In this document: positions 24,103 through 59,169 of the stretch, piece after piece
How positions within the stretch are numbered: position 1 is the first letter of the stretch
How the letters are laid out: every line of letters starts with the position of its first letter
DNA from: Leptotrichia wadei
GTDB lineage: Bacteria; Fusobacteriota; Fusobacteriia; Fusobacteriales; Leptotrichiaceae
Direction of reading: 5' to 3'
Length of the DNA: 64,000 bases
Assembly: GCF_007990445.1 (NCBI RefSeq)
Contig: NZ_AP019841.1
Coordinates: 2,046,001-2,110,000, forward strand
Program-made: the position numbers and the translations under genes
Notes under the pieces: generated by a model
What the model saw: the letters and a program-made list of their open reading frames with translations, nothing else
Database searches by the model: none
Told to the model about the DNA's origin: nothing

Positions 24103-24195
24103 TTAAGTAAAAAAAATTAAGTTATTGAACAGATCTTTTTGGCTATTTTTTATTTTTACTTTAAATTATTTTCACAAATTCAGATAAATTATAAA

Positions 24196-24298
24196 CTACT
24201 AAATCTCATTTAAAAAACAAAAATTATATTTTAGATTGCTTGCTATTTTTAACTTTTGCCAAAAATTCATAATTAATTCGCTATTTAAATGTGAATAA
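24196..24298. repeat. Family B MITE-like unit (two-ended copy)
   Basis: The left end CTACTAAATCTCATTTAAA and right end TTTAAATGTGAATA form imperfect terminal inverted repeats. The interior (AACAAAAATTATATTTTA and AAAAATTCATAATTAATTCG) matches the copy at 59018-59128. Confidence 0.65.
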
Positions 24299-24429
24299 AA
24301 AAGAAAAAGTAAAAAAATAAATAGAAAAAACTTCTAATTTATGTTACACTTTAAAAGTAAAAAATTTTAACAATATCTAGCAAGAAGTCTCCCTCTTCTA
24401 CAAGAGGGAGATGAATTGCTGAACATAAC

Positions 24430-24458
24430 TTGAAATAATAATTATTATATGGTATAAT
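24430..24458 (+). promoter_or_regulatory. Near-consensus promoter inside the IS605-type remnant
   Basis: TTGAAA (24430-24435), 17-bp spacer, TATAAT (24453-24458). The predicted start near 24465 is just before the omegaRNA-like segment and ~120 nt upstream of the M24 peptidase start codon. Confidence 0.75.
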
Positions 24459-24469
24459 ACTCGTACATC

Positions 24470-24566
24470 AGGGCAGGGACTGCCCAAAGAGCTTGGTAAA
24501 TATATTTGGCTAACAGAAGCAGATACTTCCCAAGAAGCTCACACTTCTAAAGTGGGAGTAGTTCAC
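24470..24566 (+). ncRNA. omegaRNA-like segment of the remnant element
   Basis: About 97 nt aligning with the right end of the tnpB element (39094-39192, read on the minus strand) with few differences and ending GGGAGTAGTTCAC. The terminal hairpin keeps pairing through paired changes (CACTT/AAGTG here, TGCTT/AAGCG there). In IS605-type elements this region encodes the guide-RNA scaffold of TnpB; activity here is inferred only. Confidence 0.55.
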
Positions 24567-24584
24567 TAAAAAAGAGGGAGAAAC

Positions 24585-25661
24585 ATGGAAAAAAGAACTG
24601 AAAAATTATCAAGAATTTTAAATGAACTGAATATTGACGGATTATTTATTACAGATTTGTATAATATTCGATATTTTACTGGATTTACAGGGACTACTGG
24701 AGTTGCTCTTGCGACAAAAAATGGAAACTTTTTCTTTTCAGATTTTAGATATAAAGCACAAGCCACTAAGCAAGTTACTGAAATGGGATTTGAATTTGTG
24801 GAAGTTTCTCGTGGTTCGCTTCAGACAGTTGGAGAATATATAAAGAAATTTGGACTGAAAAATGTCGGATTTGAAGATATTAACGTTTCATTCTCGCTTT
24901 ATCAGACAATTAAAGATATTTTCAAAGTGGAATTAGTTCCTGTTGGAAATAAACTTGTGATGGAAAGAATGGTAAAATCTGATGAAGAAATTGCTCTTAT
25001 TAAAAAAGCAGTAGAAATTAGTGATGTGGCATTTTCAGAAGCCTTAAAAATTATAAAGGAAGGTGTTTCTGAAAAGGAAGTTTCTTCATATATGGAATAT
25101 ATTCAAAGAAAATTAGGAGCAGATGACCGTTCATTTACAACAATTTTTGCCAGCGGTTACCGTTCAGCTATGCCCCATGGAGTTGCTTCTGACAAAAAAA
25201 TTCAAAAGGAAGAATTTATTACAATGGATTTTGGAGCATATTATGAAGGATATGTGTCAGATATAACAAGAACTGTTTATTATGGAAATAATATTACAGA
25301 TAGACACAAGGAAATTTACAATACTGTTCTAGAAGCTCAATTACTGGGAATAGAAACAATAAAAGAGGGTGTAATGTCAGATGAAGTTGATAAAGTTGTT
25401 AGAAATTTCTTTAATGAAAAAGGATATGGCAAATATTTTGGACACGGATTAGGACATGGAATTGGTGCTGAAATTCACGAATTGCCTTACTTATCTTCTG
25501 CTTCTCAAATTGAATTAAAGGAAAATATGGTCGTTACTTCTGAACCTGGGCTTTATTTTGACGGATGGGGCGGAGTCAGAATTGAAGATGATGTAGTAGT
25601 TAAAAAAGATGGAAGAGAAGTATTAAATAAGAGCAACAAGGAACTAATTATCCTATCTTAA
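24585..25661 (+). CDS. M24 family metallopeptidase (Xaa-Pro aminopeptidase/dipeptidase type)
   Basis: A 358-residue cytoplasmic peptidase of the size of the shorter PepP/PepQ-like enzymes. It would remove residues next to proline at peptide N-termini. Residues 1-125 form the creatinase N-domain (FITDLYNIRYFTGFTG). The C-domain keeps the dimetal ligands: Asp in MDFGAYYEGYVSDITRTV (two Asp), His in GHGLGHGIG, Glu in TSEPGLYF and Glu in VRIEDDV. GGGAG lies 7 nt before the ATG. The whole upstream region is an IS605-type remnant whose promoter probably drives the gene. Distinguishing aminopeptidase from dipeptidase activity is not possible by eye. Confidence 0.92.
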   Translation: MEKRTEKLSRILNELNIDGLFITDLYNIRYFTGFTGTTGVALATKNGNFFFSDFRYKAQATKQVTEMGFEFVEVSRGSLQTVGEYIKKFGLKNVGFEDINVSFSLYQTIKDIFKVELVPVGNKLVMERMVKSDEEIALIKKAVEISDVAFSEALKIIKEGVSEKEVSSYMEYIQRKLGADDRSFTTIFASGYRSAMPHGVASDKKIQKEEFITMDFGAYYEGYVSDITRTVYYGNNITDRHKEIYNTVLEAQLLGIETIKEGVMSDEVDKVVRNFFNEKGYGKYFGHGLGHGIGAEIHELPYLSSASQIELKENMVVTSEPGLYFDGWGGVRIEDDVVVKKDGREVLNKSNKELIILS

Positions 25662-39093: not shown

Positions 39094-39192
39094 GTGAACT
39101 ACTCCCGCTTTTAGAAGCAGGAGCTTCTTGGGAAGTACCTGCTTTTGCTAGCCAAATATATTTACCAAGCTCTTTGGGTAGTTCCTACCCTG
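39094..39192 (-). ncRNA. Right-end/omegaRNA segment of the tnpB element
   Basis: The sequence downstream of tnpB (minus strand) that in IS605-type elements encodes the guide-RNA scaffold. It ends in a 9-bp hairpin (CTCC-T-GCTT / AAGC-G-GGAG) before GTAGTTCAC; the guide would then be the flanking chromosomal sequence from 39093 leftward. The segment is nearly identical to 24470-24566, showing sequence constraint or recent shared origin. Confidence 0.6.
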
Positions 39193-39206
39193 TCTTCTTT
39201 TATTTT

Positions 39207-40304
39207 TTAATATTTCAACATTGCTTTTCCAATGTTTTTTATATTCAATGCCGCATTGTAATCTCTATCAATTTCAATCCCACAACACTCACATTTATAA
39301 CTTCTTTCTGATAATTTCAGTTCCTCTTTAATATTTCCACATTTACTGCAAATTTTCGATGATGGAAACCACTTATCTATCTTCAAAAATTGTTTCCCTA
39401 AAAACATCAGTTTATACTCAAGCATCCTCAAAAACATTCCCCATCCATTATCTCCTATACTTTTTCCAAAATTTAATGCCTGACTCATCCCTCTCATATT
39501 CAAATTTTCAACAACCACAGCATTATATGTTTCAGACAATTTTTTCGATAATTTATGTAGAAAATCTCTTCGGCAATTTTTGATATACTCATGCAATTTT
39601 GATATTTTCATTTTTTGTTTATACCAATTTTTAGAAAATTTCACTTTTCTTGACAATGATTTTTGTAATTTTTTCAATTTTTCTTCCAACATCCTAAAAT
39701 ATCTTGGATAATCAGCCCTTTGGTTTTCAGAACTAATAAATAATTCAGACATTGAAAAATCAAGTCCAATCACTTTATCACTATTTGGCATTTTTTGAAT
39801 TTCTTTTTCAAATTCCGTCAAAATAGAAACATAGTAATTTCCATTACTGTTTGTCAATGTTACCGACTTTATTCTATAATTCTTTGGTATTTCTCTATGA
39901 TATTTTAATTTTATTCTTTTCAATTTTGGCAAAACTAAATATTTTTTTTCCTCAATTCGTATCGAATTGTTCACACAATTTGTTGTATAACTTTTAACAT
40001 TATTCTTTTTAGATTTGAACCTTGGAAATTTCGCTCTCTTCTGAAAAAAGTTCGTAAACGATCGTCTTACATTTAATTAAGCATTTGAAAGTGCCAGACT
40101 ATCTACTTCTTTTAAAAATTGATTTTCACTTTTCAAACTGGCAGGTGTAACTATTTTATTTTTTCCAGTTTCTTCATAAATTTTATTAGCGATATATAAA
40201 ATCGTATTGTAAACAAAACGAACACATCCAAAAGTCTTGTTTATCAACAATTCTTGATCTTTATTTGGATAAATTCTGTATTTGAATGCCAAATTATATT
40301 TCAT
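39207..40304 (-). pseudogene. tnpB: tnpB (RNA-guided nuclease of IS605-type elements), interrupted by one stop
   Basis: A 366-codon reading frame (start ATG at 40304, MKYNLAFKYRIYPNKDQEL) is broken by a single in-frame TAA at 40077-40079 (codon 76, where relatives have Gln: SNA-stop-LNVRRSF). The rest is intact and in frame to 39207: RuvC residues Asp182 (VIGLDFS), Glu266 (VVVENLNM) and Asp348 (DRDYNAALN), and the zinc ribbon Cys319/322/338/341. All nuclease residues are thus kept. Without readthrough or internal start, full-length TnpB is not made, so it is probably a recent pseudogene. Confidence 0.9.
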
Positions 40305-40490
40305 AAAATTACACCTCCTTTTGATTTTGAATATTATTTTTAATTATTTCTTTAGAGATTTTATCATTATTTATACAAAAATTGTATCATAAGAGTATCC
40401 TTTTTTCAATTTTTTTTACAAAAAAAGCAATTCATCTCCCACTTATAGAAGTCGGAGACTTCTTGCTATCTTTTTGTTAAAACAAATATT

Positions 40491-58744: not shown

Positions 58745-59169
58745 TTTTTATTTTTATAATTTTATAATAAAAAAATATATTATTTAAACAAAAATCGCAT
58801 TAAATCAGTTCAATTTCAAACAAATTCATTTATATTTCAAATTAAATTTGAATATACAATATATTTTATCATATTTTTTACATTTTTATTAGTCTTTTTT
58901 TTATAATATTACAAAAATATATCTATAAAATAAATAGGAATTGCTAAAATTAACTAAAGAAGTGGAAAAGATATTGAAAAAGTCTTTAGAGAAAGAATAA
59001 ATAAAACATTGATTATAATACTAAATCCCATTTAAAAAACAGAAATTATATTTTATATTACTGGCAAAAAGGCTTACCCTCTTATAAAAAATTCATAATT
59101 AATCCGTTATTTAAATGGGAAATAGTATAAAGTATTATTTAATTAAAATCCAAAAATAATTTCTAAAAA
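58745..59169. other. Intergenic region upstream of der
   Basis: 425 bases with no supported gene. A stretch at 58938-59000 encodes 20 open codons ending in a stop and may be a gene tail remnant. The family B MITE-like unit fills 59018-59128. Confidence 0.5.
59018..59128. repeat. Family B MITE-like unit (two-ended copy)
   Basis: ATACTAAATCCCATTTAAA and TTTAAATGGGAAATAGTAT are terminal inverted repeats (17 of 19 bases pair). The inside shares AACAGAAATTATATTTTATA and AAAAATTCATAATTAAT with the copy at 24196-24298. Confidence 0.7.

Follow-up and report, generated by a model that had tools for sequence, protein, structure and literature searches.

A gene-less IS200/IS605-family element with a putative promoter and an omegaRNA-like right end upstream of a peptidase gene in Leptotrichia wadei

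The peptidase locus and its inserted element

The stretch of Leptotrichia wadei DNA under study (hereafter the window, 64,000 nucleotides, positions 2,046,001 to 2,110,000 of contig NZ_AP019841.1) carries a gene for a Creatinase_N/Peptidase_M24 protein, preceded by a short segment which an earlier note had related to a tnpB element located 15 kb away. The features of the locus, together with that tnpB element, are the following:

24322..24350 (+): promoter-like block native to the peptidase gene (TAGAAA-17-TACACT, the -10 being extended by TGt at 24342-24344), conserved in 10 species
24366..24370 (+): TTTAA, insertion target and presumed TAM, present to the left of all 25 aligned copies and within the uninterrupted site of nine relatives
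24371..24566 (+): complete non-autonomous IS200/IS605 element (PATE/MITE) of 196 bp, with boundaries set by the empty sites in relatives
24388..24411 (+): LE hairpin, 10 bp with a 4-nt loop, TCTCCCTCTT-CTAC-AAGAGGGAGA, aligned in all copies
24430..24458 (+): putative promoter, TTGAAA-17 nt-TATAAT, 11/12 consensus matches, predicted start at ~24465
24469..24566 (+): omegaRNA-like scaffold and right end, with 86-95% identity to those of tnpB and tnpA-tnpB elements
24471..24485 (+): scaffold 5' hairpin GGGCAG...CTGCCC, with compensatory changes within mini-elements
24538..24558 (+): right-end (tip) hairpin CTCACAC...GTGGGAG
24567..24586 (+): presumed guide region, directly after the right end, corresponding to the peptidase RBS and start codon region
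24585..25661 (+): Creatinase_N/Peptidase_M24 gene, 358 aa, with an ortholog in 13/13 genomes of the genus
39094..40476 (-): tnpB-only element used for comparison in the earlier note, with the same LE, TTGAAA-17-TACAAT and RE, its tnpB being broken

The 196-bp mini-element is short, contains no transposase gene and has subterminal palindromes at both ends. Its two hexamers, TTGAAA at 24430-24435 and TATAAT at 24453-24458, constitute the best promoter-like match of the region in a consensus scan, and the ATG of the peptidase (24585) is found exactly 18 nt after its right end. The LE hairpin, the promoter motif and the right-end segment all lie where the earlier note had placed them, and its description of a tnpB-less segment of IS605 type, with a promoter, an omegaRNA-like right end and a guide region coinciding with the peptidase start region, is upheld. 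The right end had also been called nearly identical to that of the tnpB element 15 kb away: the homology stands, with a within-window match of E = 1e-31, but the wording is too strong, as the identity amounts to 89/100 and other copies provide a better fit. The scaffold segment has about 38 further copies genome-wide, with 99% identity to that of the mini-element at C1:571759 and 95% to the best tnpB elements. Rfam families gave no match in the window. Exact-pattern scans, for the promoter and LE in a collection of genome contigs and for the scaffold in one of viral contigs, gave no match either, a result of no weight as closely related records may be missing from these collections.

Comparison of the regions upstream of the peptidase orthologs across 13 genomes of the genus evidenced the exact empty site, TTTTAA|TAAAAAAGAGG, in nine close relatives among the 12 other genomes. 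In these relatives the region reads ...AATTTTAA|TAAAAAAGAGG...ATG with minor variation, and here the 196 bp are found exactly at the bar. The insertion is precise, 3' of TTTAA, and devoid of a target duplication. The three more distant genomes are likewise without the element, which is absent at the peptidase gene in 12/12 other genomes; the insertion is therefore young and not fixed, which was the question that the earlier note had raised for an alignment across Leptotrichia. These empty sites also move the start of the element from 24380, as first proposed, to 24371. At a second insertion site, on the downstream side of a tuf-like gene, relatives likewise lack an interruption, at an alignment quality short of base resolution. 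Altogether, we are nearly certain that the segment at the peptidase gene is a recently inserted non-autonomous element of the IS200/IS605 family.

Two further observations concern the immediate surroundings of the insertion. A ~110-bp intergenic repeat occurs at 24188-24296, just upstream, and again at 59012-59121 of the window, the two being 79% identical. Also, the 5' arm of the LE hairpin, TCTCCCTCTT (24388-24397), matches over its whole length the complement of AAGAGGGAGA, which lies at the peptidase RBS (24573-24582); relatives carry GAGGGAAAAAC there, one substitution lengthening the match to the LE arm. This complementarity is probably due to chance; pairing of LE with the RBS was considered and is not favoured by folding.

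The mini-element family and its full-length relatives

What had been termed a remnant is instead intact and belongs to a family of mobile elements present in many copies. This genome has 8 full-length mini-elements (seven retrieved by genome search plus L010), and at least 26 are found in five species, the further copies being in G010, G006, G008 and G012. The 25 copies that were aligned fall into three subfamilies (SF1, SF2 and SF3). Every one of them has TTTAA on its left, the LE hairpin and the scaffold, with differing flanks, and the right end is GTTCAC with one exception (TTCAT). TTGAAA-17-TATAAT, or variants of it, is positioned 8-10 nt before the ~98-nt scaffold in nearly all copies; SF3 has weaker promoters, the -10 being lost in one copy, and the scaffold 5' hairpin is broken in some copies (G000f, G006e). 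Copies of SF1 are 95-97% identical between species, a value far above that of the peptidases of the same species (73-74%), and recent horizontal transfer is therefore indicated. The copy at G000:C1:1709873 (L003) has a second right-end tip (CGCTTCTGTAAGCGGGAGTAGTTCAC) directly after its own, an arrangement that would fit the insertion of one element into another or a deletion between the two.

The full-length relatives in this genome comprise a single autonomous element of 1.75 kb (C1:371121 region), encoding a TnpA of 132 aa and a TnpB of 365 aa, and about 25 tnpB-only elements of 1.38 kb. Both kinds start with the LE hairpin of the mini-elements, followed by TTGAAA-17-TATAAT/TACAAT, and both have the same right end, which there lies 5-15 nt after the tnpB stop; the mini-elements are multi-copy and have an autonomous partner with common ends. 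In 17 of the tnpB-only copies the encoded TnpB is 363-366 aa long, and alignment to the ISDra2 TnpB indicates that the D, E, D positions are kept in all 18 full-length proteins examined (these 17 and that of the autonomous element). The match to the ISDra2 TnpB (8bf8) is full-length (E 7.5e-61) with D-E-D aligned, the Y1 TnpA match has E 1e-43, and the Pfam domains found are OrfB_IS605, Cas12f1-like_TNB and Y1_Tnp. As for the scaffold, it folds and is homologous to the RE downstream of intact tnpB, and a ~88% identical sequence lies directly 3' of tnpB sequence in Fusobacterium phage phiKSUM and in an F. animalis plasmid.

The distribution of the IS605-type copies along the chromosome (G000:C1) suggests that insertion is strand-biased relative to replication. 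In 33/38 cases the copies are on the + strand within the first ~1.15 Mb and on the - strand in the rest (strand versus replichore, Fisher P 9e-6 with a breakpoint picked after the data had been seen), as expected of single-strand IS605 transposition. This bias accounts for copies being so often co-oriented with genes overall, and the copy at the peptidase locus is one of the five exceptions to it.

Smaller derivatives, consisting only of ends, are also present: they measure ~52 bp, have a single fused LE/RE hairpin and number 18 in the genus, five of them in this genome (including L164-L167), all differing in sequence. They look like in-place core deletions through recombination between the two similar hairpins, a process described for Haloquadratum in the account given in PMC3119063. 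Homogeneous families are formed only by those derivatives that have two hairpins, the promoter and the scaffold, and no two-hairpin derivative lacking the scaffold was encountered in this genome.

At 27842-27914 (-), just 3' of an enolase-like gene (27958-29268), lies an isolated sequence that resembles the omegaRNA scaffold but has neither LE nor right-end tip. Its position is common to two sister species (G012, 81%; G007, 79%), the central stem displays a compensatory change (GAGCCTGG/CCAGG versus GAGCTTGG/CCAAG) and the 5' hairpin has become weaker; the sequence may be either an ancient fossil or an RNA that has been kept. The 436-aa gene beside this 27.8-kb match was considered as a TnpB candidate and discarded, its alignment having no TnpB similarity and its sequence apparently being that of an enolase.

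Promoter, scaffold and guide: readings of the element

Between subfamilies, the parts of the mini-element are kept to differing degrees. The identity of the -35 and -10 hexamers is 1.0 and 0.985 between SF1 and SF2, and 0.83 and 0.59 between SF1 and SF3, the lower -10 value arising from variants such as TACACT. The spacer identity falls to 0.73, 0.35 and 0.23 (27-77% of the positions differ) and that of the scaffold stays at 0.86-0.90. In a shuffle test, a promoter match of this quality 7-11 nt before the scaffold has P = 0.0015 for SF1 and 0.00075 for SF2, and values of 0.8-10% for three SF3 copies (P = 0.10 in G010h). The predicted transcription start falls on the first bases of the scaffold. 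Within the mini-elements alone, the scaffold 5' hairpin presents compensatory changes in a number reached by 0/500 shuffles, a limited covariation: relatedness inflates the test, common ancestry accounts for many of the cells, and a single helix passes. It is unlikely that this hairpin, 80-95 nt from the tip, is needed by TnpA; the scaffold may nonetheless be mere carry-over, since the mini-element derives from tnpB elements.

The sequence after the right end is informative in respect to a possible target. The presumed TAM plus guide of the peptidase-locus copy is TTTAA+TAAAAAAGAGGGAGAAAC, and when TTTAA plus the 22 nt that follow the element was searched in the 13 genomes, allowing up to 3 mismatches, the only sites retrieved apart from the own locus were the empty ones at the peptidase orthologs of six relatives, with 1-3 mismatches and 1 in the nearest relative. 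The guide is directly 3' of the scaffold and its target at the empty sites is flanked by the TAM, as deduced from the insertion site. At the own locus TTCAC replaces TTTAA, the two mismatches both falling within the motif, and the presumed TAM is absent. Such a layout would be anticipated of an RNA directing cleavage to empty alleles while sparing its own copy.

We favour, as the likely reading, that the mini-element is an omegaRNA gene of a selfish kind, which has its own promoter, is mobilized in trans by TnpA and can direct the TnpB of the cell to alleles that lack the insertion; that a working guide RNA arises from it also seems probable. The resident TnpA of the autonomous copy would excise the mini-element and insert it at TTTAA in trans, which is suggested by the differing sites in related species. 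The promoter of the element would then produce a scaffold RNA extending into the new right flank, which would serve as the guide, and this RNA would load TnpB made by other copies. The loaded TnpB would cut chromosomes or incoming DNA bearing the empty site, repair from a sister copy restoring the element at the cut site. The net effect would be a mobile guide-RNA gene, a parasite of the autonomous IS. At the peptidase locus the RNA would also read into the peptidase mRNA, acting at most as a second promoter, and incidentally so. The excision and insertion half draws on knowledge of the family and on comparative evidence, and the cutting half on TnpB biology (PMC11870625; PMC10278001). In a broader formulation, for which we see the arguments as evenly balanced, the mini-elements would be a family of mobile guide-RNA genes with promoters of their own, hyper-minimal IS605 derivatives in which selection would have preserved nothing beyond the transposition ends, the promoter and the omegaRNA; they would thereby home and persist by reprogramming the TnpB of other elements, with nuclease-bearing and guide-bearing transposons dividing the labour.

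A plain passive PATE/MITE, namely an internal deletion moved by TnpA in trans whose promoter and scaffold, transcribed or not, are functionless leftovers from the parental element, is a less probable explanation, albeit one to be taken seriously. Non-autonomous IS605 derivatives are common, according to the accounts in PMC3119063 and PMC7290912, the end-only 52-bp derivatives found here indicate that core deletions are frequent, and all copies are young, with little time to decay. However, across three subfamilies with dissimilar spacers the hexamers and their 17-nt spacing, the start position and the scaffold over its entire 98 nt are kept. Moreover, the 18 end-only copies are all different, as if not amplified, even if with their single hairpin they may be immobile.

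A distinct scenario, the domesticated leader that the earlier note had put first, is that the element is kept for driving or regulating the peptidase, for instance through a folded leader or LE-RBS pairing. In its favour, the promoter points at the gene, the right end is at 18 nt from the ATG and the RBS is intact. The earlier note had seen in the conservation of the segment, and in the promoter-to-start distance, a reason to hold a decayed fossil less likely; that conservation reflects recent spread and not domestication. We consider domestication very improbable, as the element is missing at this gene in the other genomes and the native promoter-like block is intact upstream of the insertion (TGtTACACT, 24342-24350). 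The block and its flanking ~40 bp are conserved in 10 species, with an unchanged distance to the gene, the species differing farther upstream, and although with 8/12 consensus matches it is below the scanner threshold, from this conservation it is probably the native peptidase promoter. The promoter of the element is therefore at most an extra one, and the element therefore lies within the native 5' UTR. In addition, the predicted unpaired probability of the RBS is 0.83-0.87 with or without the element, and mini-elements do not differ from tnpB elements in having a co-oriented downstream gene (17/25 versus 24/30), so that there is no upstream excess.

Finally, a guide RNA serving in trans a nuclease-dead TnpB (TldR-like) that represses another gene, as the earlier note had also envisaged, can be set aside as most improbable: such systems do exist (PMC13418256), but D, E and D are kept in 18/18 full-length TnpB examined, no second TTTAA+guide target occurs in the genome within 3 mismatches, and the guide depends on where the element has inserted and so varies among copies.

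Relation to known systems

Gene-less IS605 elements (PATEs) are already known. Meers et al. (2023, Nature) reportedly touch on PATEs in IS605 systems. The role generally ascribed to TnpB is that of keeping its own transposon at a site. The PATEs of Haloquadratum walsbyi (PMC3119063) and the PATE-like element of Halanaerobium (PMC7290912), as characterized in the parts of those reports used here, resemble the mini-elements in being short and gene-less with subterminal palindromes, and also in the lack of target duplication, in a targeting sequence left outside the element and in their homogeneous multi-copy families. The Halanaerobium element is described as retaining the RE in full and the final 58 nt of tnpB (PMC7290912). 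Unlike the PATEs as there described, the elements reported here have a promoter 8-10 nt before a retained scaffold, in three subfamilies, and a promoter or guide-RNA role for PATEs does not figure in those parts of PMC3119063 and PMC7290912. More generally, within a partial coverage of the literature which leaves priority uncertain, no description was found of a MITE- or PATE-encoded omegaRNA acting in trans, or of a promoter-driven omegaRNA in such elements.

Should the proposed reading be true, guide-only elements would show that other elements can share, or steal, the service of TnpB in trans. They would also help to explain the amplification of gene-less IS605 derivatives, and would stand midway between the guide RNAs of transposons and independent guide genes (CRISPR-Cas12, TldR). 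The family also constitutes a natural test, as one promoter-scaffold unit is found at many sites with different guides in genomes with intact TnpB.

In respect to IS605 elements of the ISDra2 type (TnpB plus omegaRNA/reRNA), the LE and RE hairpins, the RE-encoded scaffold, the guide in the flank and a homologous TnpB are common to both systems, and the TAM, which in that type equals the target sequence at LE, is presumed to do so here, the target being TTTAA. Unlike that type, the mini-element is without tnpA and tnpB and has its own putative promoter for the scaffold, TnpB being able, according to the account in PMC10278001, to process its own mRNA into omegaRNA. The TnpB gene drive of IS605 in plasmids, in which the guide is recorded at the insertion site and IS-free copies of the site are cut (PMC11870625), was shown for a TnpB-encoding IS, whereas in the present case one element would supply the nuclease and another the guide. 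The guide RNAs of TldR share with the present case a TnpB-type guide RNA near host genes; unlike in TldR systems, no dead TnpB is involved here and the guide addresses the empty site of the element itself.
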